This document shows positions 5,637 through 37,252 of a DNA stretch of 37,648 nucleotides, piece after piece. Positions within the stretch are counted from its first letter, which is position 1. Every line of letters begins with the position of its first letter. The translations under genes were made by a program, and so were the position numbers. Source of the DNA: Candidatus Palauibacter scopulicola (lineage in GTDB: Bacteria > Gemmatimonadota > Gemmatimonadetes > Palauibacterales > Palauibacteraceae); contig NZ_CANPWG010000049.1 in assembly GCF_947581915.1 (NCBI RefSeq), forward strand, positions 1-37,648. Reading direction: 5' to 3'. The notes below the pieces were generated by a model. It saw nothing but the letters and a program-made list of their open reading frames with translations, made no database searches and was not told where the DNA came from.

Positions 5637-6659
5637 GTGACGGCCGTGACACCCGCGGGGGCGCGCACCTGCCCGAACTGCGGGCGCGACCGGCCGGAGA
5701 GCTTCTGCGCCCACTGCGGGCAGAGCGACCGGGACTATGCCCGCGCGCTGCGGTCCGTGGCCGGCGAGTTCGTGCGGGAGACGTTCGAGGTGGATTCCCG
5801 GCTCTTCCGCACGCTGAAGCTTCTCATGTTCCGGCCCGGAAGCCTCACCCGGGAGTTCTCGCGCAACCGCCGCGCCGGCTTCGTGTCGCCCGTCCGGCTC
5901 TACATCTTCGCCAGCTTCATCTTCTTCCTCCTGCTGTCGCTGCGGGGAGACTTCGGCGAAGCGGCCGTGGCGGACTTCGGCGAAGCGGCCGTGGCGGACT
6001 CCGGCGAAGTGGCCGTGGCGGACTCCGGCGAAGTGGTCGTGACAGGCGCCTCCGAGGAGGACCCGGAAAACGTCGCAGACCAGCTCCCGACGGAAGAGCG
6101 CCTCGCGGCCTTCATGGCGGCGCTACCCCCGGAGCAACGGAGGAAGGCCGACGACATTCTCGCGCGGCCGGAAGGCAATTCCCGGCAAGCTCTTCTTACC
6201 CTGGCCCAGGCGGGGAACCTCGAGGAGCGGCACTGGACCCTGAGGTTCTTCGTGCTGGCGATCGTCGACATCGTTCACGATCCCTCGATCATGCCCCGGC
6301 GTTTCCTCGCGAACATGCCGATCGCGATGTTCTGCCTGCTTCCGTTCCTCGGGCTGATCCTCGCCGTCTTTCATTTTCGGAAGAAGCGCTTCTACGTAGA
6401 GCACCTGGTCTTCGCCATCCATGTCCAGACGTTCACGTTTCTCATCTACGCGGTCGCCCTTCTGCTCCCCGACTCGGGGCCCGGGCTCTGGGTCCGCGTG
6501 GGTTGTCTGCTGGTTCCCTACCCCTATTTCGTCGTTGCTCTCCGACGCTACTACGAGAACGGGTGGGTCCTGTCCGTGGTGAAGTCGGTCGGGGTGTACG
6601 TGCTCTACTCGATGGCGCTGATCCCCGCGTCCATTCTCTCAATCCTCGTGACCGGCTAG
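5637..6659 (+). CDS. DUF3667 family membrane protein with N-terminal zinc ribbon
   Basis: A 340-aa protein. Residues C12, C15, C24 and C27 (CPNC...CAHC) form a zinc ribbon. The following segment (RSVAGEFVRETFEVDSRLFRTLKLL, then PGSLTREF..RR and SPVRLYIFASFIFF) is the hallmark of DUF3667. About five membrane segments follow: one at about 85-103, the others in the C-terminal half. A variable DSGEVAVA-like octapeptide repeat sits after the first membrane segment. The start is GTG, 4 bp after the S9 stop, so it is probably co-transcribed. The family has no established function. Confidence 0.85.
   Translation: MTAVTPAGARTCPNCGRDRPESFCAHCGQSDRDYARALRSVAGEFVRETFEVDSRLFRTLKLLMFRPGSLTREFSRNRRAGFVSPVRLYIFASFIFFLLLSLRGDFGEAAVADFGEAAVADSGEVAVADSGEVVVTGASEEDPENVADQLPTEERLAAFMAALPPEQRRKADDILARPEGNSRQALLTLAQAGNLEERHWTLRFFVLAIVDIVHDPSIMPRRFLANMPIAMFCLLPFLGLILAVFHFRKKRFYVEHLVFAIHVQTFTFLIYAVALLLPDSGPGLWVRVGCLLVPYPYFVVALRRYYENGWVLSVVKSVGVYVLYSMALIPASILSILVTG
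5949..6041 (+). repeat. 24-bp minisatellite (four units) inside the DUF3667 gene
   Basis: Units start at 5949, 5973, 5997 and 6021 (GACTTCGGCGAAGCGGCCGT + GGCG and variants). Units 1 and 2 are identical; 3 and 4 diverge by a few bases and the last is partial. Each encodes D-F/S-G-E-A/V-A/V-V-A, an acidic linker just after the first membrane helix. The number of units is expected to vary between strains. Confidence 0.9.
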
Positions 6660-10506: not shown

Positions 10507-11760
10507 CTAGCGGCGGCCGTCGTCTCGGGTGAGGGGGCTCAGGTAGTCGCGGTTGCCGAGGCCGAGCTTCCGGAGGGCGATGCCGGTCATGCACTCGTCC
10601 ACAATCTTCTTGGCGTTGAGCATGGTCGTGTAGCCCGGGTCGACGAGCGGATTGAGTTCGACCAGGTCGAAGCCCACCACGTTGTTCTCCGAGCAGAGCC
10701 CGCGGACCATGTAGAACACCTCCCGGGGCGTCAGGCCTCCCGGCACCGGCGTCCCCGTGCCCGAGGTGTAGGCCGGGTCCATGACGTCGATGTCGAAGGA
10801 GATGTGCAGGTACTCGGGGCCTTCGTTCGCCTGGTCGAGGACTTCCGTCATGACGTTCGTCCAGCCGTCCCGGTCGATCTCGGCCATCGTGTGGTACCGC
10901 ATGTCGTTCGCCCGCATCCACTCGAACCCTGACGGCCCCGGCCAACTGCCCCGCAGCCCCACCTGGATGAAGTTCCGGCCGAGGATGTGGCCGTCATCGA
11001 TGAGGCGTCGCACCGGCTGCGCGTGCGAGATCAGGTGGCCGTGCCGGGCGTCCCCCGCGTCGTAGTGCGCGTCGAAGTGGATGACGCCGACGTTCTCCTT
11101 GCCGTACACGTCCGCGAGGCCCGCCACGTTGGCGAACTCGATCGAGTGGTCTCCCCCGATGATCACGGGGATGGCGCCGGTCTCCGCGATCTCTCGCACC
11201 ATCCGGCGGATCGGCGGCATGCTGCGCTCCACGCTCAGGTTGTCGATCGGCGCGTTGCCGTAATCGACCGCCGTGAGTTCGCTCCGCCACGAGATCATCG
11301 TCTCCATGCTGCCCACGCTGCGCCGCATGGCACGGAGCGCGGTCGGCCCCTCACCCGCCCCGCGGTACCCGACGCCCATGTCGACCGGCGCCCCCATGAA
11401 GGCGACTTCGACCTCGCCCGCGACGAGATCCTCGGGCGTGCGCGCGATCGGCAGCCCGAAGAAGGTGAGGACGGACCCGACCTCGATGGGTCCGGGTTCC
11501 CGCGGAGGATCCCCGGAGATGTCCCGGTCCTGCCACACCGCGAGGTTGGGATCGCTCGCGTCGAGCCGGATGATGGCCGAGTCGGGCGGGAGCGGCTCCC
11601 GCTCGGGGACAGTGTCGCCCGCGGCGTCCGTCACAGGGTCGGTCGGGTCCGCCGGCGCATCCGCAGCCGCGACATCGCCGGATTCCGGCGGCGGAACCTC
11701 GCAGGCCGTGAGGAGCAGACCGCACAGGAGGAGAGCGGAGGAAGACGGTCGGGATGTCAT
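10507..11760 (-). CDS. Lipoprotein of the ureohydrolase (agmatinase/arginase) family
   Basis: A 417-aa protein with all ureohydrolase manganese ligands: H205 (GGDHS), D230-H232-D234 (DAHYD) and D323-D325 (DID in SFDIDVMDPAYTSGTGTP). This family hydrolyses guanidino compounds such as agmatine or arginine to urea plus an amine. Unusually, it begins with a lipoprotein signal: hydrophobic core LLLCGLLL, lipobox LLTAC with C20, then a Pro/Asp/Ala linker to about residue 75. The enzyme is therefore predicted to sit in the periplasm or at the outer membrane rather than in the cytosol. It is 9 bp downstream of the small coiled-coil protein and may be co-transcribed. Confidence 0.9.
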   Translation of the reverse strand: MTSRPSSSALLLCGLLLTACEVPPPESGDVAAADAPADPTDPVTDAAGDTVPEREPLPPDSAIIRLDASDPNLAVWQDRDISGDPPREPGPIEVGSVLTFFGLPIARTPEDLVAGEVEVAFMGAPVDMGVGYRGAGEGPTALRAMRRSVGSMETMISWRSELTAVDYGNAPIDNLSVERSMPPIRRMVREIAETGAIPVIIGGDHSIEFANVAGLADVYGKENVGVIHFDAHYDAGDARHGHLISHAQPVRRLIDDGHILGRNFIQVGLRGSWPGPSGFEWMRANDMRYHTMAEIDRDGWTNVMTEVLDQANEGPEYLHISFDIDVMDPAYTSGTGTPVPGGLTPREVFYMVRGLCSENNVVGFDLVELNPLVDPGYTTMLNAKKIVDECMTGIALRKLGLGNRDYLSPLTRDDGRR

Positions 11761-12072: not shown

Positions 12073-12194
12073 GTGTCCTTCCTTTCTGCGACTGATAACA
12101 CCGTACTACGCCAGGCGTTCGGACGCTAACTCGCCGTGCGTGGCTCCATGCGACATCGCCTGGCGAGGTGGATGCCCACGGAGCCTGGCCCCTC

Positions 12195-12248
12195 GCAACA
12201 CCAAGGTCCGCCGCGGTCTCAACGGCGCATCATCAGGTTGAGACCGCG
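12195..12248. repeat. Diverged copy of a dispersed repeat, with a 12-bp-stem hairpin
   Basis: The motif TCCGCCG..GTCTCAAC..GC.CATCATCAG seen here (12195-12236) recurs at 23752 and 24378. In this copy only, the core is followed by its reverse complement: CGCGGTCTCAAC (12212-12223) pairs perfectly with 12237-12248 across a 13-base loop. It lies 61 bp downstream of the stop of the leftward LRR gene and may serve as its transcription stop, although no T-run follows. Apart from this, the 236-bp gap 12073-12308 shows no coding signal. Confidence 0.6.
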
Positions 12249-22019: not shown

Positions 22020-22883
22020 TCACCCTCGGTCCGGCCTCTTCCCCGTGCCTCGCAGCTTCGCCACCTGACTAAGGAGATCGAACCAGAACGGAGCGCCAAG
22101 CGACACCGCTGCCGCAGTGAAGAGCCACCCGAAAACATGGCTAATCCAAGTCGACGCATCCCAATCCTGCACGTCATCCCGCACGCGGAACGGATCTTCG
22201 TCCTCCCACCCTAGCGGAAAGGACTGGAGAATCGCGTCCGCGACCTGCACGGAGTCCGCGCTCGCGGTGCCGGCCGCGGCAACCGCCTTTTGGGCGATCT
22301 CATACCGGAGCGCGTCATCCCGCCAGAGGTCCTGCACGACGTGCACGGTGCTCGCGTTCGCCGACACGGCCACGACGGCGCCGATCGCGAAGATGATCAG
22401 TTGCGTCTGCCGGCGATACCAACCCGACACCCGGTTCATCCCCTCGTCAAACCACCCGGCGACCTGGCGCCGCAGGTCGTCCACCTTCTCCGCGCCCAGG
22501 TGGGTCATCGCCCGGAGAGGCGCCTTGAGCTCCGAGTCGTCTTCGACCCGATCCACCAACTCGGCCGCCTTGTCCTCCATGGTCACCACGAGATTGCCGT
22601 CCTCATCCTGCGCGAGCAGGTCCACCAGCGCCGAGGCGAAGGTGTCGCTTCCGATGTACGACGGCATCTTCTTGCCCTTCGCCAGCGTGTTGACCAGCGG
22701 GTGTCCGTAGAGCCGCTCGCCGTAATCGTTGCCGATCAGGGTTCCGATCCCCTTCCGGAGGTTCTTCGCCCGCAGCGAGAACAGGGTGGAAACCCACTCC
22801 TTGACGACCGAGGCGACGAGGCTCAGCACGCTGTAGAGCAGCATGAGGCCGAGGGCCACGTCGACTACTGGATGATCGAGCAC
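22020..22883 (-). CDS. Membrane protein of a widespread uncharacterised family
   Basis: A 287-aa protein. I place the start at GTG 22883 because GGAGG lies 4 bp upstream and the protein then begins at the first membrane helix (VLDHPVVDVALGLMLLYSVLSLVASVVKEWVSTLF). Next comes the family-like LRAKNLRKGI..LIGN...LYGHPLVNTL...PSYIGSDTFASALVDLL segment, then helices near 165-182 and 250-275. The large polar parts between helices are likely cytosolic. It lies 19 bp downstream of the NYN gene, on the same strand. The function of this family is not known to me. Confidence 0.75.
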   Translation of the reverse strand: MLDHPVVDVALGLMLLYSVLSLVASVVKEWVSTLFSLRAKNLRKGIGTLIGNDYGERLYGHPLVNTLAKGKKMPSYIGSDTFASALVDLLAQDEDGNLVVTMEDKAAELVDRVEDDSELKAPLRAMTHLGAEKVDDLRRQVAGWFDEGMNRVSGWYRRQTQLIIFAIGAVVAVSANASTVHVVQDLWRDDALRYEIAQKAVAAAGTASADSVQVADAILQSFPLGWEDEDPFRVRDDVQDWDASTWISHVFGWLFTAAAVSLGAPFWFDLLSQVAKLRGTGKRPDRG

Positions 22884-22902
22884 TGCGCCTCCTTCTCCCT
22901 CT

Positions 22903-23475
22903 TCATTCCGCGTCCGGTCCACCGACCGCCGCCAGCCCACAAGGTAGGTACCCCCGCCCATATCGGCTGGCACGAATCGGCCCGTAGCGGCGCCGGAGGA
23001 TCAGATGAGTACCTGCGATGTCGTAGTTGTCGACCCATGCGAGACTGATCATGTCGGTGGCCATGCGAACGTCGAGACCTTTCTCCTCGGTGCCCCGCAT
23101 GTCAGCGCCACAGGCAGGGCATCGACCTATCGCCTCATGGCGCGTCGGACATTTTGGTGGCGACCGCTTCTTCTGACGGGGGACCATCGAGACGCTCACG
23201 CCAAGGAACCCAGCCACGACTCCGGTTGCCCAGCGATGGAGCTCTCGGTCCGTGGATTTGTTGTAGGAGCTGTAGAAGTTCAGCCCCTGGTACTCGTCCC
23301 TGGAGGCTGCATCGACCACCTCGACGGCAGCACGCGAAAGAACCGGCCCCAGTCTCGACCAATCCGCCCTGAATCTTGGGTCGCGAGCCCTCATGGAGAG
23401 CTCGTAGTTCCAGAAATCCACGAACACTCTTACACGATGGCGCGAGACGTTGGCTGCGACATGAGGCAGGCTCAT
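22903..23475 (-). CDS. NYN-domain (LabA/DUF88-like) protein with damaged C-terminus
   Basis: A 190-aa frame. RVFVDFWNYE (D20) is the first acidic motif of the NYN/PIN-like nuclease fold, and KGLDVRMATDMISLAWVDNYDIA contains the second. A Cys/His knuckle (PKCPTRHEAIGRCPACGADM) is inserted between them. In intact relatives, YDIA is followed at once by a strand and an SSDxDFVP motif that supplies the last metal ligand. Here the frame goes to GTHLILRRRYGPIRAS instead. A neighbouring frame reads VLI-stop-SS...RFVPA, so the expected motif is present but out of frame and mutated. The gene is likely decayed or recently frameshifted. Confidence 0.7.
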   Translation of the reverse strand: MSLPHVAANVSRHRVRVFVDFWNYELSMRARDPRFRADWSRLGPVLSRAAVEVVDAASRDEYQGLNFYSSYNKSTDRELHRWATGVVAGFLGVSVSMVPRQKKRSPPKCPTRHEAIGRCPACGADMRGTEEKGLDVRMATDMISLAWVDNYDIAGTHLILRRRYGPIRASRYGRGYLPCGLAAVGGPDAE

Positions 23476-23495
23476 GCCGAGTAGCCTGATGCAAA

Positions 23496-23526
23496 CAGGG
23501 GCGCTGATGGTTGATCAGCGCCCCTG
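23496..23526 (-). terminator. Perfect 13-bp-stem hairpin
   Basis: CAGGGGCGCTGAT (23496-23508), loop GGTTG, ATCAGCGCCCCTG (23514-23526). On the minus strand it is followed by TTTGC. It stands 20 bp upstream of the NYN start, so it could stop leftward transcription arriving from hicB or act in the NYN leader. Confidence 0.5.
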
Positions 23527-23751
23527 GGGTCGAAATTGTCGGTCCCCGTAATCCCTCTCTGGGCGGTGGACCGACGGGTCATCGGCTGAAGGCACGATAC
23601 GACGTCGCTTGCCGGGGTGCAAATCGGCCGCTCCATGGCCCGCGAGAGCGGAGCCGTGACCCGAGATGGTGTGTTCACGCTGGATCCTCACATGCTGGTT
23701 GCAGGGGTAGCGGCTCCGGCACCGGGAAGCGTGCCTTCGGAGCCCGACCGG

Positions 23752-23822
23752 CTGTAACACGAGGATCCGCCGGAGTCTCAACCGCCCATCATCAGTGTCT
23801 TGCGGCGCCGACCGGACCATGG
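23752..23822. repeat. Dispersed repeat, copy 1 (left of the pseudogene)
   Basis: About 71 bp (CTGTAACACGAGGATCCGCC..., ending GGCGCCGACCGGACCATGG) that recur at 24378-24447 with only a few changes; a diverged third copy is at 12195. Copies 1 and 2 bracket the pseudogene fragment and hicB. Confidence 0.8.
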
Positions 23823-24055
23823 AGATCGGGCATTCTTCAGGATCTCCACGCGCGACGCCCTGACGGTGCAGATGGCCGCGCCCATCGAGGGCCGCGTGCT
23901 TCTGGCTCATGGCGACGCGGGCGTGGTCTTCGAAGGACACCGGGGGGAGGCGCGTCGTGGGGACCGTCGTCGACTCGTTTGGCGTCGGACTGCCGAACGC
24001 CCGTGCCTACGTGCAGGGATCCGGCACGGAGACGGAAACGGACGGCGAAGGACGA
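23823..24055 (+). pseudogene. Shrunken, frameshifted copy of the gene at 24584
   Basis: The stretch 23829-23885 matches the parent at about 24874-24933 (GCATTCTTCAGGATCTCCAC...), then jumps to sequence matching parent 25635-25790 (GGCGACGCGGGCGTGGTCTT...), so about 700 bp is deleted inside. A further short deletion lies at its left end, and an additional G in a G-run (near 23946) shifts the frame. Homology ends near 24055. It is a dead partial duplicate of the secreted carboxypeptidase-regulatory-like gene 500 bp downstream. The rest of 23527-24106 shows no coding signal. Confidence 0.85.
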
Positions 24056-24106
24056 TAGATGTGTATTCGTGGGGGGAAGAGCTAACGAGGTGTAGTGCTG
24101 AGTCGG

Positions 24107-24319
24107 TCAAGCCGGCATCAGGCGCTCGCCCTTGGGTTCCGGTACGGGCCGTCCCAACTCCCGTGCCCGGTCGATCCAGAACTGCATCGCATCCTTGATG
24201 TTGCTCAAGGCGCTCTCGTGATCGTCTCCGTGCGCCATGCACCCGGGCAACTCGGGCGCCTCGGCGACGAAAGCCTGACCTTCGTCGCTCCAGTAGAGAA
24301 TGATCGCGTACTTGTACAT
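24107..24319 (-). CDS. hicB: HicB-family antitoxin, solitary
   Basis: A 70-aa protein with the HicB partial RNase H-like fold: YKYAIILYWSDEGQAFVAEAPELPGCMAHGDDHESALSNIKDAMQFWID. The motif PELPGCxAxGDxxxEAL is diagnostic. The C-terminal DNA-binding extension seen in longer HicBs is missing. Its ATG overlaps the stop of an upstream frame (TGATG), as in hicA-hicB operons, but that upstream gene is reduced to a stub (see 24319-24375). No intact HicA toxin is visible, so it is an orphan antitoxin. Confidence 0.85.
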   Translation of the reverse strand: MYKYAIILYWSDEGQAFVAEAPELPGCMAHGDDHESALSNIKDAMQFWIDRARELGRPVPEPKGERLMPA

Positions 24320-24375
24320 CAGTCGTCCGCTCCCAACTTGTACTTGAGGATCAGCTGCCGAACCTGCCTAACCCC
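24319..24375 (-). pseudogene. C-terminal stub of the former hicB partner
   Basis: The minus-strand frame ending TGA (24321-24319) reads VRQVRQLILKYKLGADD before the stop and overlaps the hicB start by one base. Coding sense ends where the dispersed repeat begins (24378). The stub does not clearly resemble a HicA C-terminus, but the one-base overlap shows that a translationally coupled gene once stood here and was cut off at the repeat boundary. Confidence 0.45.
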
Positions 24376-24377
24376 GC

Positions 24378-24447
24378 CTGTAGCACAAGGGTCCGCCGGA
24401 GTCTCAACCGTCCATCATCAGCGTCCGCGGCGCCGACCGGACCATGG
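24378..24447. repeat. Dispersed repeat, copy 2 (upstream of the intact secreted gene)
   Basis: CTGTAGCACAAGGGTCCGCC...GGCGCCGACCGGACCATGG, the near-identical partner of 23752-23822. It lies 137 bp before the GTG start at 24584; the sequence between (24448-24583) shows no gene. Confidence 0.8.
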
Positions 24448-24583
24448 CCGATCCGCGCCCATGGTTTCGAACGGGCCTGGGGAGTCCAGCTTCAGGGTTG
24501 GGTTGTACCGGCTGCGGGCATAGCATCCCCGGCATGGGGAGATCGCACGCTGACCCGAGGCTCACACGAGAGGCGTAGGCACC

Positions 24584-26419
24584 GTGCCCGCCGACCGCGG
24601 CAGGGTCCGGCTGACGATCGCGACGGTCGCGCTGGTCGTGCTCCAGAGTGCGGTTGCGTCGGCCGTGCAGGGCCAGGTGGTGCGTGGCAGGCTCGTTGAC
24701 GATGGGGACAGCGCGGCCATTGCGGGGGCGATGATCACCCTGGTGGGCCGGGACGGCCGCGGCGTCGCGCGGATGCTTACGCGGAGCGGTACGGGTGTGT
24801 TCGAGTTGCGGGTCCCCGCCCCCGGCGAATACCGGTTGCGCGCCGAGCGGATCGGGTATGGGACCACGCACTCGGCATTCTTCAGGATCTCCACCCGCGA
24901 CACCCTGACGGTGCAGATGGCCGCGCCCATCGAGGCGATTTCGCTGGCGGAAATCAGCGTGTCCGTCCGTCCCCAGTGCCATCTGCGCCCCGAGGAGGGG
25001 CTGGCCGTCGCCAGAGTCTGGGACGAGGCGCGCAAGGCGCTCGCGGCGGCGAGCTGGACGCAGGAGCGAGGCCTCTACCGGTACGAGATGCTGGGCATCA
25101 AGCGGTTTCTCGACCAGGACGGACGCAGGGTGGAGGCCGAGGATCGAGCCTATGGGCAGGCCCTCGTGCCCGTACCGTACGTCGCCCGTTCAGCCGACTC
25201 TCTCGTGCACGGAGGATTCGCGAGGTTCTCGGCCGAGGCGTCGGATTTCTGGGGTCCCGACGCCGGCGTTCTTCTCTCCGATCCGTTTCTCGACACCCAC
25301 TGCCTGCGGATCCGGTCCGGAGTCAGCGGACTCGTCGGGTTGGAGTTCGAGCCCCTGCCGGACCGGAACGTGGCGGACATCGCGGGAACGATGTGGCTCG
25401 ATGCGGCGACCGCGGAACTCCAGCGGGTGGACTACCGCTACGTGAACCTCCCCGTGCCCGAGTGGCTGATGGATGCGTCTCCCGGCGGCACCGTGAGCTT
25501 TCGCGGCCTCCCGGACGGCACCTGGATCGTCACCTCGTGGAACATCCGGATGTTCACGGCGGGCGAGGCCGAGCACCCGCTCACGGGCCAGCCCACGGCC
25601 ACCCTGGAGGGCGTCGCCATCACGCACGGCGAAGTGCTTCGGGCGCATGGCGACGCGGGCGTGGTCTTTGAAGGACACCGGGGGAGGCGCGTCGCGGGGA
25701 CCGTCGTCGACTCGCTCGGCGTCGGACTGCCAAACGCGCGCGTCTACGTGCGGGGATCCGGCACGGAGACGGAAACCGATGCCGAAGGCCGATTCGAGCT
25801 GGACCGCCTGGGCGCCGGCACCTACGCGCTCCAATTCACGCATCCGTACCTGGAGCCGCTGTGGTACGAATCCGAGCCCGTCGAGGTGGAAATGGGACCG
25901 GACGTCGACAGCCGGGTCGAGGTCCGGTTCGAAGCGCCCCCGCTGAGCGATGTCCTCTCCGCGGTCTGCGGTCGAAATGGCCCACCCGGCGTTCCCATGG
26001 TCTCCGCCGCCGGCACCGCAGTCTGGCAAACGGGCATCCTCACCGGGACGGTGACGGACACGGACGGAAACCCGATCGAGGACGCGACGCTTCACCTGCT
26101 GACGAGGGCATACGACCCCCGCCACTTCGCCAGGGTCCGGGATCCGCGCACCATCAACCTCGAGGAACAGCGCAGCCGCTGGACGGAAAAAAGCAGCTCG
26201 ACCGGCTTCTACCGAGTGTGCTGGCTGCCCTCCGGCGTCCCGATTGAGCTGGTGGTGCTCGGCAGCGACGAAGACGTGGACCGGGACGCGCTCGAAGCTG
26301 CGCTGAGCCTCGCCGACGTGTTTCCGGGTCGCGTTACGACCCTGACCATCGACCCCACGTCGCCGCAAAGGGCGCTGAACCTGCGCCTGGAGGTTGGGGG
26401 CCGCGACGACCCACACTAA
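24584..26419 (+). CDS. Secreted protein with carboxypeptidase-regulatory-like domains
   Basis: A 611-aa protein starting at GTG 24584. A signal peptide (TIATVALVVLQSAVASAVQG) is followed by a carboxypeptidase-regulatory-like beta-sandwich (about 30-105: GRLVDDGDSAAIAGAMITLVGRDG...FELRVPAPGEYRLRAERIGY). The middle domain (about 120-360) is conserved in appearance but not assigned. A second sandwich is near 370-450 (GTVVDSLGVGLPNARVYVRGSGTETETDAEGRFELDRLGAGTYALQF) and a third near 490-600 (GTVTDTDGNPIEDATLHLL). Such proteins are cell-surface or periplasmic binding modules common in Gemmatimonadota and Bacteroidota. A damaged partial duplicate lies upstream, and a strong terminator follows. Confidence 0.85.
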   Translation: MPADRGRVRLTIATVALVVLQSAVASAVQGQVVRGRLVDDGDSAAIAGAMITLVGRDGRGVARMLTRSGTGVFELRVPAPGEYRLRAERIGYGTTHSAFFRISTRDTLTVQMAAPIEAISLAEISVSVRPQCHLRPEEGLAVARVWDEARKALAAASWTQERGLYRYEMLGIKRFLDQDGRRVEAEDRAYGQALVPVPYVARSADSLVHGGFARFSAEASDFWGPDAGVLLSDPFLDTHCLRIRSGVSGLVGLEFEPLPDRNVADIAGTMWLDAATAELQRVDYRYVNLPVPEWLMDASPGGTVSFRGLPDGTWIVTSWNIRMFTAGEAEHPLTGQPTATLEGVAITHGEVLRAHGDAGVVFEGHRGRRVAGTVVDSLGVGLPNARVYVRGSGTETETDAEGRFELDRLGAGTYALQFTHPYLEPLWYESEPVEVEMGPDVDSRVEVRFEAPPLSDVLSAVCGRNGPPGVPMVSAAGTAVWQTGILTGTVTDTDGNPIEDATLHLLTRAYDPRHFARVRDPRTINLEEQRSRWTEKSSSTGFYRVCWLPSGVPIELVVLGSDEDVDRDALEAALSLADVFPGRVTTLTIDPTSPQRALNLRLEVGGRDDPH

Positions 26420-26472: not shown

Positions 26473-26580
26473 ATCTCAGCGCCTTGCTGCGCCCGAAGGT
26501 TCTGTGCAGTAGAGGACGACCTGAGACGTATGCGCGAAGTATCGTCAGATCCCACCCAAAACGCAACTTGTGGAGTTGTC

Positions 26581-27294
26581 ATGCTATCCATCGGAAGCCT
26601 TCGAAGTGCGCTCTCGGCGGAGCGGCTGAGCGCCTACGCCCTGCCTGACGACATCGACGAAGTCGACAGCGTGGCGAGATACCTGTGGAACCTGGCGCTG
26701 TGCAGCGCCCTCCAACCGGCGCTTCATACCCTTGAGATTACCGTCCGGAACCACCTCTTAAGGATTTCCGGAAGGATCGTGGATCAGGCGACGCTCCGTT
26801 TTGATAAGGTCCCGTGTTGGCTCGACGCCCAACCCTCGCTGCTTGCCAACCGCGAGCGTCAGGCCGTCGAGACGGCGAAGAGTACGATCGCGAGCCGGAG
26901 CCGTCCGATGACCGAAGGCCGGCTTGTCTCCGCTCTGGGGTTTGGTTTCTGGGTGAGCCTGTGCAAGAAGCCATATGACCAAGGGCGTGCCGGCCGGTCC
27001 AGCCTCTGGCCCGAACTGGCAACGAGGGGATTCCCGCATCTACCCAAAGCCCAGCGCACACGCAGCCAGATCTTCCACGCCTTGGATCCGCTCCGCGACC
27101 TGCGTAACCGCGTTTCTCACCATGAGTCCGTTTGGGACCGGAAGCTCAACCGAAGTCATCAGGACATCCTCGAGACCATTGGCTGGATCAACCTCGACCT
27201 GGCGACGACCCTGCGGGCACACTCGCCGCTGCCTGAAGTGCTCGAGAGGGGCGTAGCCGGCTTCCGTGCTCAGGCTGAAGCAATCATCAAGTGA
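26581..27294 (+). CDS. Abi-like (Abi_2/AbiF type) HEPN protein
   Basis: A 237-aa protein. ATG 26581 (MLSIGSLRSALSAERLSAY) has GGAG 6 bp upstream and matches the usual Abi_2 opening; a longer frame from 26530 is less likely. The body (VARYLWNLALCSALQPALHTLEITVRNHLLR) and the RNRVSHHESVW segment near residue 180 are typical of Abi-like proteins. RNRVSH fits the Rx4-6H motif of HEPN RNases. Relatives are linked to abortive infection or toxin-antitoxin-like phage defence by RNA cleavage. It is convergent with the XRE-ImmA gene (gap 26 bp) and has no obvious antitoxin. Confidence 0.85.
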   Translation: MLSIGSLRSALSAERLSAYALPDDIDEVDSVARYLWNLALCSALQPALHTLEITVRNHLLRISGRIVDQATLRFDKVPCWLDAQPSLLANRERQAVETAKSTIASRSRPMTEGRLVSALGFGFWVSLCKKPYDQGRAGRSSLWPELATRGFPHLPKAQRTRSQIFHALDPLRDLRNRVSHHESVWDRKLNRSHQDILETIGWINLDLATTLRAHSPLPEVLERGVAGFRAQAEAIIK

Positions 27295-28615: not shown

Positions 28616-29602
28616 ATGGCCAGTGCCGAGCAGCTCAAGGCGTTGCTGAGGTCGCATCTGGAAGGCGACGACGACCGATTCATCTCGGTCGCCATGCAGG
28701 TTGCCGCCCACGAAGCGAAGGTTGGGCACGGCAAACTGGCCACCGAACTCCGCGACATTATCGACAAGGCCAAGAGCCGACGTGGGGCTGGATCCCCGGT
28801 GCCGATCGGTCGACCGCGCGGCGAACTGGCCAACCTGCTCGAAGCTTCGTTCCCCAAGGCACGGTTGGGGGACATGATCCTCGGGAAGGCCCTGGCGAGT
28901 CGCATCGACCGAATCATTCGTGAGCAGCGCCACGCCAGCCAGATCCTGGATCACGGCCTCTCGCCGAGGCGCAAGCTCCTGCTCGTGGGCCCTCCGGGTA
29001 CCGGGAAGACGCTTTCCGCATCCGTCCTGGCGGGAGAACTCGGTCTCCCCCTGCTCCAGGTTCGGCTTGACGGCCTGATCACCAGGTTCATGGGAGAGAC
29101 CGCGGCCAAGCTGCGGCAGATCTTCGACGCCACCGGCCAGACACGAGGCGTTTACTTCTTTGACGAGTTCGACGCCATCGGCTCGGAACGCGGGATCGCC
29201 AACGACGTGGGCGAGATCCGGCGGGTGCTGAACAGCTTCCTCCAAATGATCGAGCAGGACGACTCGCACAGCATCGTGATGGCCGCGACCAATCATCCGA
29301 GCGTACTCGACCAGGCGCTCTTCCGCCGCTTTGACGACATCCTTCACTTCGAGATGCCGGACGAGGACCAAATCGCCGAGCTGTTGAAGACGCGGGTTGG
29401 TCCGCGCGCTTCGCAGGACATCACGTGGGGCGACCTCGCGTGGCGGGCAGTGGGCCTGAGCTTCGCGGACGTGGCGCGGGTGGCAAACGACGTTCTCAAG
29501 GACGCACTCGTCGGGCAGCGGCAGCAGATCCAGGCGGAGGAGATTCGGGCGGTGATCGACGAGCGCAAAGCGGTCGCCATTCTCCCCGACCCGAAGGAGT
29601 AG
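28616..29602 (+). CDS. AAA+ ATPase (SpoVK/CDC48-like single domain)
   Basis: A 328-aa ATPase. A helical N-terminal domain (1-90) precedes the AAA+ core: Walker A GPPGTGKT (125-132), pore-loop region near FMGE (158-161), Walker B VYFFDEFD (179-186), sensor-1 ATN (224-226), arginine fingers R237/R238 (FRRFD), and a small helical lid with LSFADVARVANDVLK. These features indicate a hexameric remodelling ATPase. Relatives are often paired with subtilisin-like proteases or other effectors in defence islands; no protease is encoded here, but two small genes follow closely. A GGAGG site precedes the ATG. An extended -10 promoter lies upstream and it is divergent from the XRE-ImmA gene. Confidence 0.9.
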   Translation: MASAEQLKALLRSHLEGDDDRFISVAMQVAAHEAKVGHGKLATELRDIIDKAKSRRGAGSPVPIGRPRGELANLLEASFPKARLGDMILGKALASRIDRIIREQRHASQILDHGLSPRRKLLLVGPPGTGKTLSASVLAGELGLPLLQVRLDGLITRFMGETAAKLRQIFDATGQTRGVYFFDEFDAIGSERGIANDVGEIRRVLNSFLQMIEQDDSHSIVMAATNHPSVLDQALFRRFDDILHFEMPDEDQIAELLKTRVGPRASQDITWGDLAWRAVGLSFADVARVANDVLKDALVGQRQQIQAEEIRAVIDERKAVAILPDPKE

Positions 29603-31142: not shown

Positions 31143-32026
31143 TGGGGCTCGCCGCCTGGTTCAGCACGTTCTGCGGTAACATACAGGTCAGGAACGGAGC
31201 GACGATCTCCAGCCGATACAAGAGTATCACCCGACGGCTGAATACCGACTTCTGGACAACGACATCGGACACCGCGCATAGCCTCCAGGTCGGCTCGTAC
31301 GGCCGCAATACAGCCATTCATGGTACGAGCGACGTGGACATGATCTTCCAGTTGCCCTACTCGGTCTACCAGCAGTACGACAGCCACGTCGGCAATGGCC
31401 AATCCGCGCTGCTGCAAGCCGTCCGCGCGTCGGTCAGAAAGACCTACCCCGCTACGGACATCGGGGCGGACGGCCAAGTGATCGTGGTTTCCTTCGGGGA
31501 TTCCATCAGGTTCGATCTCGTTCCCGCCTTCACCAACAAGGACGGCAGCTACACCTACCCCGACTCGAACGGCGGCGGGAGCTGGAAGAAGACGAACCCG
31601 AGACCGGAGATCGAGGCTATTCGCACCCGCAACGATGCCTGCAATGGCAACCTGATCCCGCTGTGCCGAATGATGCGGGCTTGGAAGACCAAGATGGCCG
31701 TGCCCATCGGTGGCCTTCTCATTGACACGCTGGCGTATCAGTTCATCGGTTCGTGGAAGTACCGCGACAAGTCCTACCTCTACTACGACTGGATGTGCCG
31801 CGACTTCTTCGATTTCGTGGCCCGCCAGGACAAAGAACAGCAGTATTGGAAGGCCCCCGGGAGCGGCCAACGGGTGTACGGCCCCAAAGGTCAGTTCCAG
31901 TACAAGGCAAGACGCGGCTACAACCTGGCATGCGAGGCCATCGAGCACGAGACGGCCGATCCGAAGCGGGAGTGGTCGGCGAAACAGAAGTGGAGGGAGA
32001 TCTTTGGCACCTCATTCCCGAGCTGA
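31142..32026 (+). CDS. CD-NTase / SMODS nucleotidyltransferase (CBASS-like)
   Basis: A 294-aa nucleotidyltransferase of the cGAS/DncV-like group. The polymerase-beta fold active site is complete: the G51-S52 motif (QVGSYGRNTAI), D64-x-D66 (SDVDMIF) and the third Asp D125 (IRFDLVPAF). The C-terminal helical domain includes LCRMMRAWKTKM and GGLLIDTLAYQFI. In CBASS, such enzymes sense infection and make cyclic di- or trinucleotides that activate an effector. Here the effector candidate is the SLATT protein encoded 7 bp downstream. The ATG overlaps the previous stop. No Cap2/Cap3 or HORMA/TRIP13 genes are visible, as in the simplest CBASS operons. The nucleotide product cannot be predicted. Confidence 0.93.
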   Translation: MGLAAWFSTFCGNIQVRNGATISSRYKSITRRLNTDFWTTTSDTAHSLQVGSYGRNTAIHGTSDVDMIFQLPYSVYQQYDSHVGNGQSALLQAVRASVRKTYPATDIGADGQVIVVSFGDSIRFDLVPAFTNKDGSYTYPDSNGGGSWKKTNPRPEIEAIRTRNDACNGNLIPLCRMMRAWKTKMAVPIGGLLIDTLAYQFIGSWKYRDKSYLYYDWMCRDFFDFVARQDKEQQYWKAPGSGQRVYGPKGQFQYKARRGYNLACEAIEHETADPKREWSAKQKWREIFGTSFPS

Positions 32027-32033
32027 AACGCCC

Positions 32034-32696
32034 ATGGATTCCAGAGACTACATCGAAGCGCAACTGCGCGACTGCTATGGGCGCGTCGTCTATTCCCACA
32101 AGGCGCATGAGAAGTGCGCGGACCTCCTTCTGACGAGGCTGTCCAGGATCAAGCTCGCGCAGATCATTCTCGCGTCCGTGACGACGGGGAGCTTCATTTC
32201 CGCGTTCTTCGGAACCGGGGATGTCGGCACGGCCGTCGGTCTCGTCGTTTCTGCGACGCTCGTCGCGTTGAATACATACACCAAGGACTACGACCTCGGT
32301 AGGCTCGCGCAGAAGCACCGCCAGTCCGGAGCGGAGCTATGGCTCATCCGCGAGGAATACCTATCGCTCATCACAGATCTGCGAGTTGGGGATGAGTCCG
32401 TCGAGAACATTCGATTGCGGCGCGACGCGCTTCTCGAGCAATTGCACGCCGTCTACGCCGGAGCACCCAGTACGACGGTTCGAGCGTATACGGAGGCTCA
32501 AAAGGCGCTGCAACAGTTGGAGGAGTTGACCTTCTCCGACGACGAGATCGACAAGCTGCTGCCCCCTCGGCTGAGGAGCACTACCGCGCGGCCTGATGGC
32601 AGCGACCAGCCCAAGGCTAGCGTGAATCGCGACGAGGCAGGACGAGCGCACGAGGGGAATGGCAGCGCTCTCCACATTGACCAGGAGACCAAGTAA
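32034..32696 (+). CDS. SLATT-domain two-TM effector
   Basis: A 220-aa protein starting at ATG 32034. An amphipathic N-terminal helix region (MDSRDYIEAQLRDCYGRVVYSHKAHEKCADLLLTRL) precedes two membrane helices (about 40-60, AQIILASVTTGSFISAFFG, and 63-82, VGTAVGLVVSATLVALNTY). A long helix with YDLGRLAQKHRQSGAELWLIREEYLSLITDL then completes the SLATT signature. SLATT proteins are thought to be membrane-perturbing or pore-forming effectors activated by nucleotides made by SMODS enzymes, causing abortive death of infected cells. The C-terminal 45 residues are a disordered polar tail. The next gene starts directly after its stop. Confidence 0.92.
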   Translation: MDSRDYIEAQLRDCYGRVVYSHKAHEKCADLLLTRLSRIKLAQIILASVTTGSFISAFFGTGDVGTAVGLVVSATLVALNTYTKDYDLGRLAQKHRQSGAELWLIREEYLSLITDLRVGDESVENIRLRRDALLEQLHAVYAGAPSTTVRAYTEAQKALQQLEELTFSDDEIDKLLPPRLRSTTARPDGSDQPKASVNRDEAGRAHEGNGSALHIDQETK

Positions 32697-34351: not shown

Positions 34352-37252
34352 GTGTCCCGCGGAGTCAGACTTCCGACGCTCTACCCCATGCCGCGCAACA
34401 GGGCACAGTACTGGGTGTGTTATCAGGCCTCTCTGGCTGAGCCCACGGTGGAGGAATGCAGGAAGTTGGTCCGCGAAGAACTGATCCGTGAGGACGGCCG
34501 GCCCTACGGTGAGGGGATGGTCGCCGGACTCGTTTCCAACCTTGCAGGGATCGGATTCCTGCGGCGTTCCGGGCGCCGGATTCTGCCGCCCGACCGCTTC
34601 CCCTTCGGACGGTTTTCGTGGGATGGAACGTGGGACGGCTCGCCCGACGGTTTCGAAGAGTACGTTGACAAGACGATCCTCAAGTGGTGCTGGTGGTGGC
34701 CAGATGGCCTTCAGCTTGCCTACGACCTGCTGTCTGCCCTCGATAACTCCGAAACTGGCCTGGGCGTAACGCAACTCTGGGACCGTTTGAGGATCGATCC
34801 GGCCGGCGGAACCGGTCGGTACGACGGTGGCGATCGACATGGAGCGCGGACCGTCTCAGAAACGCTTCGGGTCATGGAGTTTGCAGGTTGGGTCGAACTC
34901 CAAGGCAGAAAACGAGTCGTCACAGCGCGTGGACGGCGGCGTCGGCCCAGTCTGAGGAAACGCGATACCTATCACCGGATCGAGCGCATCCTCGCCACGA
35001 TCGATCCCTTTTCCACCGACATACTCGACCAATCGCAGTGGATCGATCTGACGAAACTCTTCATGTGGCGGGAGAGTGGTGGCAAGGGAAGACGGACCCC
35101 GATCCGAGAGACTCGCGACCAGCTCTTCACGAACCGCTACTCGAGGACCCTGAAGTCTGAGATCCGCAGTGAAATTGACCGCAGCCAGCGCACCTTGTCC
35201 GACCTGAGGTCCGAGATCGCCGACTACGACGCTTCGCTCGGACACCGGGTCGAGAACGTCCGTAACGCGGCGAAGCTCGTCCGAATACGAGACCACCTCG
35301 CCGAAGGGAAGGTGGAACAGGCGGAATTGAGTCTGGACTCCTCGGGGGCAGGCCTGTCAGGTCGGGCCCTTCGCGAACTGAAGCACCCCGGATCCGACTA
35401 CTCGCTCGCTCCGTCTCTGGCGCCCTACCGTTGGCAGTCGGAAGCGCTCCGCTGCTGGAGCGACGCTGGAGGTCGAGGCGTTCTCCAAGTCGTTACGGGA
35501 GCGGGAAAGACCTTTCTGGCGCTTCTGGCCATCGAGCGGCTGCTCGAGTCGCACCCCGAACTCCGCGTGAGCGTCCTCGTGCCCACCAAGGTACTCATGT
35601 ACCAGTGGGTCATGGAGCTTGTCCGCTTACTGGGTGTCCCGCCGGATGACGTCGGGCTCCGTGGAGATGGGCACAAGGACGGGTTTGTTGAAGGCCGGAG
35701 AATCGTCGTAAACATCATCAACTCGGCGATCCTCGATGACCAGCTCAAGAAAGACGCAGCGAGCCTGCCCCCGAACACGCCTCACCTCCTGATTGCGGAT
35801 GAATGCCATCGATACCGTGGCCGAGCATTCCGTCGGGCCTTCGGCGCACGCTACGATTTCAGCATGGGACTCTCTGCCACGCTGGGGGACTCCTCCCGGG
35901 CGAACAGCGGGGAGGGCTCTGAGGAGTCCGATGACCCGCTGTTGTCGGAGCTAGGGTCCCTGGTCTACGAATACACGTACCAGCAGGCAAGATCCGACGG
36001 TGTCGTCCAACCCTTCGAAGTCTACTACGTGGGCGTCGAACTCAGCACTTCAGAGCGTACTCAATACGAGGCGTACAGCAAGCGTATTCGGACCGCCTTG
36101 CAGAAGATTCGCCAACGGTACGGGCCGCGAATCGACGCGATGCCAGGACCGTTTTACGCACGTCTCCACACGATCCTGCATGGCGACGAGAGACCGGATC
36201 CCGCCATCCCCAAGTACTTCGAGGCCGTCCGGGAGAGGAAGGAGCTCGTCTATCGGGCGCGGAACAGGAAGTGGGCCTATCTGGATATCGTCGCGAAACA
36301 CGCGGTCCGCAGTGACGGCCAGGAAGACCGCATCATCGTTTTCGACGAACGCATCGAGAACGTTCAAGAGGTCGTTGCGCCGATGGATCGACGGAAGGCC
36401 CGTCAGCTCGGCCCGGTGGAACGAGCCATCAACAATCAACTTGCAGAGCTGCTGTGGAATCGGGCATTTCGCGCGGTCATGTATCACTCGGGGCGATCGA
36501 AGCCCCTGTGGAACGAGATCTCGATGGAGTTCTTTCGGGAGGGCTGGGCAAACGTGATGCTCTCCGTGAAGGCCCTGGTGGAAGGTGTCGATGTTCCGGC
36601 CGCCAATGTGGGGATCATTCGGGCCTCTTCCAGTTCCGTTCGCCAACGCATCCAGACGACCGGCCGGATCCTCCGACGGGCGGCTGGCAAGAATAGCGCA
36701 GCCAAGCTCTACGTCATTTTCGTAAGGGACACGACGGACGAGCGAATCTTCCACGGTACCGATTGGGCGGAGCAATTGGGATCCAGCCAGATTCGCTGGA
36801 TTCACTGGTTCCCACCGACAGAGCTAGGGTCGCCCGGAGGCGATTGGCGCGAGGGGCAACCTCCGGACCTTGAATCAGGGTGGGAAGAGGAGACTCTCCC
36901 CGAATTCGAGGTCGACGACCTCACGCCTGGTGATCCGTATCCGGGCGCCTATGCGGGCAGGGAATACCATGTGGACGCATCGGCCAGACCTTTCAAGAAC
37001 ACTCGGGACGGGCGCCGGCGAATAACCAACGTCGATGTCGCGACGGCGGCTGCCCTGGTCTTCCAGCTCAAGCGCGGAGGGAAATTCGTAGTCACGCCCG
37101 AGAACCACATGATCACGCGGGTGGGGAGGGATCTGGTGTTCCTGGGGGTCCTAGACGGCGAACCGCAGTTGGAGCCAACAAGGTCTTCAAGGGTCCCCCA
37201 CACCGGCAGCCCGCCGACTTTCGAAGAGCTATTCGGTAGGCGTGACGCCTAG
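34352..37252 (+). CDS. SF2 DECH-box helicase with C-terminal copy of the repeated module
   Basis: A 966-aa protein starting at GTG 34352. The N-terminal 250 residues contain winged-helix-like segments (YGEGMVAGLVSNLAGIGFLRRSG; TVSETLRVMEFAGWVELQGRKRVV) and a charged helical linker. The SF2 motor has motif I VTGAGKT (about 377-384), DECH (about 482-486), GLSATL motif III, and motif VI QTTGRILRRAAGK (about 767-779). All core residues are present, so it is a likely ATP-driven translocase on nucleic acid. The C-terminus (about 867-938: YAGREYHVDASARPF...VATAAALVFQLKRGGKFVVTPENHMITRV...LVFLGVLDGEP) repeats the module found in proteins A and B, which suggests that the three act together. Similar helicases serve in anti-phage systems such as Hachiman. 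Confidence 0.9.
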   Translation: MSRGVRLPTLYPMPRNRAQYWVCYQASLAEPTVEECRKLVREELIREDGRPYGEGMVAGLVSNLAGIGFLRRSGRRILPPDRFPFGRFSWDGTWDGSPDGFEEYVDKTILKWCWWWPDGLQLAYDLLSALDNSETGLGVTQLWDRLRIDPAGGTGRYDGGDRHGARTVSETLRVMEFAGWVELQGRKRVVTARGRRRRPSLRKRDTYHRIERILATIDPFSTDILDQSQWIDLTKLFMWRESGGKGRRTPIRETRDQLFTNRYSRTLKSEIRSEIDRSQRTLSDLRSEIADYDASLGHRVENVRNAAKLVRIRDHLAEGKVEQAELSLDSSGAGLSGRALRELKHPGSDYSLAPSLAPYRWQSEALRCWSDAGGRGVLQVVTGAGKTFLALLAIERLLESHPELRVSVLVPTKVLMYQWVMELVRLLGVPPDDVGLRGDGHKDGFVEGRRIVVNIINSAILDDQLKKDAASLPPNTPHLLIADECHRYRGRAFRRAFGARYDFSMGLSATLGDSSRANSGEGSEESDDPLLSELGSLVYEYTYQQARSDGVVQPFEVYYVGVELSTSERTQYEAYSKRIRTALQKIRQRYGPRIDAMPGPFYARLHTILHGDERPDPAIPKYFEAVRERKELVYRARNRKWAYLDIVAKHAVRSDGQEDRIIVFDERIENVQEVVAPMDRRKARQLGPVERAINNQLAELLWNRAFRAVMYHSGRSKPLWNEISMEFFREGWANVMLSVKALVEGVDVPAANVGIIRASSSSVRQRIQTTGRILRRAAGKNSAAKLYVIFVRDTTDERIFHGTDWAEQLGSSQIRWIHWFPPTELGSPGGDWREGQPPDLESGWEEETLPEFEVDDLTPGDPYPGAYAGREYHVDASARPFKNTRDGRRRITNVDVATAAALVFQLKRGGKFVVTPENHMITRVGRDLVFLGVLDGEPQLEPTRSSRVPHTGSPPTFEELFGRRDA

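Follow-up and report, generated by a model that had tools for sequence, protein, structure and literature searches.

The repeat pair and its surroundings

The window, the whole 37,648-nucleotide stretch of Candidatus Palauibacter scopulicola DNA analyzed here, carries three copies of a short intergenic repeat. The left copy (23748–23822, +) is composed of a core that runs up to CATCATCA at 23794, a right extension termed D1, and the sequence GACCGGACCATGG. The right copy (24374–24447, +) is a chimera: its upstream side is of the hicB-module type found in the relatives G020, G023 and G026, and its downstream side resembles that of the left copy. Aligned over 75 columns, the two share 89.3% identity and end alike in GACCGGACCATGG, in agreement with the original prediction, which placed near-identical copies with a common ending at 23752 and 24378. 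Their longest exact word in common is 21 bp, shorter than the k-mers usual in assembly, which makes an assembly artefact from the repeat unlikely.

The third core copy (the 12207 copy; 12174–12236, +) is of downstream type D2 and scores 59 bits with the repeat model R2. It had been described at 12195 as hairpin-forming, and a perfect 12-bp palindrome (12212–12223/12237–12248, +) with a fold z of −3.4 is indeed present. The palindrome is private to this copy; no family-wide fold of the core was found, and a family-wide hairpin was rejected, as was a structured RNA in the core, which has neither an Rfam family nor a conserved fold. Alignment of 16 copies defines a 45-bp core, CGGCTGTAACACNAGGGTCCGCCGCAGTCTCAACCGCNCATCATCAG, and the repeat reaches ~265 bp with its upstream part. 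Searched with three mismatches allowed, the repeat pattern occurs at five places in this genome, far above chance, and the reversed control pattern at none; besides the copies in the window, two lie on contig C22.

Between the paired copies lie a dead gene fragment and a hicB module. The 228-bp fragment (23829–24056, +), anticipated as a remnant of ~230 bp, is a decayed copy of the intact gene at 24584–26419 (+), which encodes carboxypeptidase-regulatory-like domains. It consists of two pieces, 23829–23890 (96.8% identity to 24874–24935) and 23896–24056 (90.1% identity to 25634–25793), with two internal deletions and a missing 3′ end. The hicB module (24058–24423, −) ends in the right core and is 97.5% identical in G026, 95.1% in G023, and 91.5% in G020 (over 24084–24423). 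Its ORF (24107–24319, −) is HicB-like (Pfam PF15919, E 2.8e-10), and it is an orphan as proposed. The evidence does not bear out the proposal that its partner is cut off precisely at the right copy: only ~18 open codons separate hicB from the core, and these have no recognisable HicA similarity, the best tblastn match against 20 HicA loci of the genus having an E value of 0.82. HicA loci are present elsewhere in the genome; in other versions of the island, hicB comes after an NYN gene in G027 and after a gene for a small membrane protein in RHO3_bin_72, rather than after hicA.

Upstream of the pair, the left core forms part of a ~265-bp non-coding unit, unit a (23530–23795, −). A coding function was rejected, with variable columns distributed 26/25/26 over the three codon positions. 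A promoter-like TTGCAC-N17-TATCGT (23594–23622, −) is found on the minus strand in all five full-length copies of unit a; it resembles the tRNA-gene promoters of this genome and has their spacing. Unit a reaches a promoter score of 11.1, against a 95th percentile of 10.07; the core scores 4.3, against 6.85 for the 95th percentile of random 56-mers, and a sigma-70 consensus scan of 22800–24700 returned no site. A housekeeping, sigma-70-type promoter in the core is thus not supported, and a regulatory reading rests on unit a and on the position of the repeat.

A hairpin (23497–23526, −) separates unit a from an NYN-like ORF (22903–23475, −; weak match), whose 3′ part is unlike its relatives beyond 22998. 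The same hairpin stands between unit a and the NYN-like gene or its remains in the RHO3_bin_72 copies, where it is followed by a T-run, weakly so in the window. Folded on the minus strand, single sequences of the unit a region exceed their shuffled versions in stability (z −3.59 and −3.45), and covariation is thin, with double-sided changes in 7 of 101 predicted pairs among five sequences. Unit a resembles a promoter-plus-leader region, and 23497–23622 (−), comprising the highly conserved promoter-like site, a possibly structured leader and the hairpin before the NYN-like gene, is a candidate attenuator or regulatory RNA.

Other features of the window include an arginase-family gene (10507–11760, −), which serves as an island landmark in relatives, and two 45-bp tandem copies at 5949–6041 that are 88.9% identical. 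To the right of the pair, the gene at 26530–27294 (+) encodes a PD-T4-5-like defence protein (PADLOC E 1e-16); it is preceded by a stand-alone D1 box at 26476 and a terminator-like hairpin. For an AAA ATPase at 28616–29602 (+), PADLOC gives a match to IetA, a component of the IetAS defence system (E 6e-74). The SLATT_4 effector-domain protein at 31710–32696 (+; Pfam E 2.5e-66) and the large ResIII/DEAD-type helicase encoded downstream of it (34352–37252) are possible further defence genes.

Distribution of the repeat

A genome-wide count yields 20 copies, of which 13 belong to 8 of the 17 Candidatus Palauibacter genomes; contigs from two other bins hold the remaining 7. With a sequence-only model, the 13 genus copies score 58–71 bits across the 17 genomes, and the next best match scores 19.4. 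Among 295 genomes of the class, the remaining strong matches are six in RHO3_bin_72 (G234) and one in RHO2_bin_50 (G182), the remaining weak ones scoring at most 21.5 bits. The pattern search finds the repeat in 8 of 35 genomes of the family, all within Candidatus Palauibacter; in public genomes it returns seven loci, two under the name Candidatus Palauibacter, four under Gemmatimonadota-type names and one under a Gammaproteobacteria name. RHO2_bin_50 is itself titled Gammaproteobacteria. The plasmid collection and viral contigs searched contain no match.

The contigs from RHO3_bin_72 and RHO2_bin_50 (L091–L094) match the Palauibacter window at ~90–95% identity over many kilobases and are therefore taken as probably mis-binned Palauibacter DNA, although they may alternatively reflect transfer between symbionts. 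The repeat is specific to the genus Candidatus Palauibacter, a marine, mainly sponge-associated lineage. No earlier description appears in the titles and abstract openings of open-licence papers on Palauibacter or Gemmatimonadota intergenic repeats, and a word search of the main text of the main Palauibacterales paper (PMC10469786) does not return the words repeat, integron, restriction or toxin.

Each positive genome has one to six copies on one or two contigs rather than genome-wide dispersal. The contigs bearing them have further island modules in common, so the copies seem confined to a single hypervariable island with many genes for defence and toxin-antitoxin systems. By reading of ORF lists, the nearest upstream gene reads away from the core in 18 of 20 copies, the exceptions being C22b and one RHO3_bin_72 copy. 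These upstream genes include the weakly matching NYN-like gene, hicB, a gene for a PD-Lambda-5_A-like protein, a HEAT-repeat protein gene with a type II DNA methylase gene after it, and a multiubiquitin–E2–ThiF/JAB operon; on this gene set the region is a defence-rich accessory island. In RHO3_bin_72, the multiubiquitin operon (L092, 13195–15802, −) stands directly behind a repeat copy.

Flank reassortment and the right edge of the core

The flanks of the core fall into types. Upstream, type a is the ~265-bp unit, full length in five copies and 5′-truncated in C22a, G019 and G030; type b is the hicB module, present at the right copy of the window (G000) and in G020, G023 and G026; type c is the small membrane-protein gene found at the 12207 copy, G027a and RHO3_bin_72; and further upstream types exist. 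Downstream, the GCGTCTTGCTGCGCCCG-like extension D1 follows 10 of the 20 copies, D2 follows 3, and something else follows the other 7. Type b is joined to three downstream types, D1 and two others; type a occurs with several, and type c with at least two, D2 included. D1 in turn occurs with several upstream types and, in the window and two relatives, precedes the gene at 26530 without a core. The flanks therefore reassort across the core.

We surveyed breakpoints in pairwise alignments over 14 loci (244,064 bp), which gave 276 distinct breakpoint clusters. Ten of these fall within 8 bp of the right edge of the core, CATCATCA|G, against 0.38 expected from a uniform spread, and none lies near its left end. 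Most of the loci were selected because they contain the core, a single joint may count in more than one locus, and breakpoints are commoner in intergenic DNA; the excess is therefore indicative and is not to be read as a probability. With this proviso, the right edge of the core is a recurrent, one-sided rearrangement joint for modules. Its right-hand partners include the C-terminal ends of genes (G019, G023/G026) and the stop codon of a gene (G020). Several of these joints lie within 0–6 bp of the same base, and no microhomology is visible between the core and its right-hand partners, a pattern that would not be expected from plain homologous recombination. The suggestion that the repeat is a recombination target thus fits in part: it holds for the reassorting flanks and the recurrent synteny breakpoint at the right edge.

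Origin of the pair and alternative readings

The original prediction had proposed a search of relatives for empty sites. In two loci orthologous to the window, L094 and L093, the arginase gene leads via unit a straight to the 24584 gene, with a single core directly before it. The segment 23796–24480 is absent, and with it the pseudogene, hicB and the second core. At the right copy, a type b upstream side is joined to the same D1 and GACCGGACCATGG as in the left copy, and a GGAGTC variant is common to these two copies only, among those aligned. This chimera leads us to read the pair as the outcome of a tandem duplication between short direct repeats, with G026 displaying the parent order that such a model needs (gene, hicB module, core). 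A core before the 24584 gene would have recombined with, or slipped onto, a core located beyond a gene-hicB block, duplicating a segment composed of D1, leader, gene, hicB and core. The predicted product, core a–D1–leader–gene copy 1–hicB–core (b/a)–D1–leader–gene copy 2, has the order found in the window. The left gene copy would then have decayed through its two internal deletions and through loss of its 3′ end as far as the beginning of the hicB module. G019 carries a further decayed variant of this neighbourhood, in which unit a is followed by another module and then by a different fragment of the 24584 gene.

Several observations weigh on this model. No hicB follows gene copy 2, so the duplication would be incomplete or altered since. 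CCGTCC places one right-core base of the G026 type inside otherwise left-copy-like sequence, which counts against the model. The insertion-free loci lie on contigs that are probably mis-binned, and L094 has lost D1 and is therefore not a pristine ancestor. The low promoter score of the core, and right-hand joints not expected from plain homologous recombination, likewise weigh against the reading as a whole. Overall, we consider the best explanation, at a probability of roughly 55%, to be a genus-specific intergenic element that forms a recurrent joint in one island, with the pair as the scar of a duplication. The element would sit at the 5′ edge of leftward-read modules and mark where modules are shuffled, among them the NYN-like, hicB and PD-Lambda-5_A-like modules, the HEAT-repeat and DNA methylase module, the ubiquitin-like operon, and others. 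The joint would be due to short homology and to a 5′ regulatory region being retained, not to a dedicated recombinase.

The repeat could instead be an ordinary conserved 5′ region, an operator or regulatory site kept by selection before accessory genes, with the apparent joints marking where selection stops and neutral flanks have diverged. The away-reading upstream genes agree with this, as does a core that is better conserved than its flanks in the aligned copies. Yet modules that are ~90–97% identical switch abruptly to unrelated downstream genes when G019, G020, G023/G026 and G027a are compared with the window; divergence therefore cannot explain the joints, and we regard this reading as rather unlikely. 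Its narrower form, in which the repeat is the leader of paralogues of the 24584 gene and which the original prediction had named as its refutation, is rejected, since only 4 of 20 copies stand directly before that gene or its remains. Related arrangements have been described. Intergenic repeats of the halovirus HF2 carry promoters (PMC8707807); the Palauibacter repeat likewise precedes several unrelated genes and its unit a looks promoter-bearing, but the core alone misfits the local promoter consensus, and it resides in a bacterial chromosome rather than a virus. CapK/CapS (PMC13373217) and RptR (PMC12255303) are shared regulatory modules upstream of diverse immune operons, comparable in placing one upstream element ahead of unrelated defence genes, whereas the Palauibacter DNA repeat travels without a regulator gene.

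A non-autonomous mobile element, as the original prediction entertained, would make the core the end by which a MITE or IS remnant is recognised and mobilised in trans, its sharp right end being the terminus and its variable upstream ends truncations. The one-sided, near base-exact right boundary beside unrelated DNA fits this, as do the nested 5′ truncations of unit a. Against it stand the apparent limitation to one island, the missing matches in viral and plasmid collections, and the lack of inverted ends: the only palindrome is private to one copy, and the two sides of the core right end pair above chance in 1 of 20 copies (p under 0.01 against window background). Moreover, the window ORFs scanned with Pfam (part of the total) include no transposase, and 10 of 20 copies run past the supposed end with the same D1 extension. 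Visual inspection of the junctions shows no target-site duplication, although the loci offer no clean pair of empty and filled sites in which both ends are present. Such an element is a poor candidate, and the pair is most likely the scar of one duplication rather than a product of jumping. Small intergenic repeat families such as RU/ERIC and MITE-like sequences (PMC2229807, PMC2759123) are likewise short, non-coding and intergenic (~50–300 bp) with several copies per genome; the Palauibacter repeat differs in having few copies in one genus and apparently one island, without inverted ends or signs of transposition.

Under cassette capture of the integron kind, the modules (hicB, NYN and others) would be cassettes and the repeat a recombination site of unusual type. 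An attC site is an imperfect palindrome with RYYYAAC and GTTRRRY boxes. Within a contig the repeats do all point the same way (two of them on C22 and five on RHO3_bin_72 C81), small accessory genes lie between them, and the flanks reassort. However, there is no attC-like fold, no fitting RYYYAAC...GTTRRRY pair by inspection, and the repeat lies 5′ of genes, not 3′. No integron integrase exceeds the curated cut-off (TIGR02249) in this genome, which is 96% complete; one of the 17 genus genomes, G029, encodes a genuine one (C376, 7438–8367, +; 369 bits). An integron with attC sites was thus rejected, and a cassette system in the wider sense is highly improbable. Clusters of attC sites without an integrase are known as CALIN (PMC9024848, PMC7923331); like these and other cassette arrays, the Palauibacter repeat lies in one orientation between small accessory genes of variable order, but it has no attC fold, boxes or integrase, is 5′ of genes, and is spaced at long and irregular intervals.

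One feature, the one-sided joint with its near base-exact position, is not fully accounted for and lends itself to testing. It is very doubtful that an unrecognised recombinase, or some other activity that processes ends, cleaves at CATCATCA|G. If one did, it would build defence islands by joining modules of core, leader and gene to arbitrary upstream DNA, an integron-like capture that acts on the 5′ side of genes instead of the 3′ side. The locus serves as a case study of the shuffling of accessory defence and toxin-antitoxin genes in an uncultured symbiont, in which a short repeat common to unrelated modules marks the points where they are cut and rejoined.
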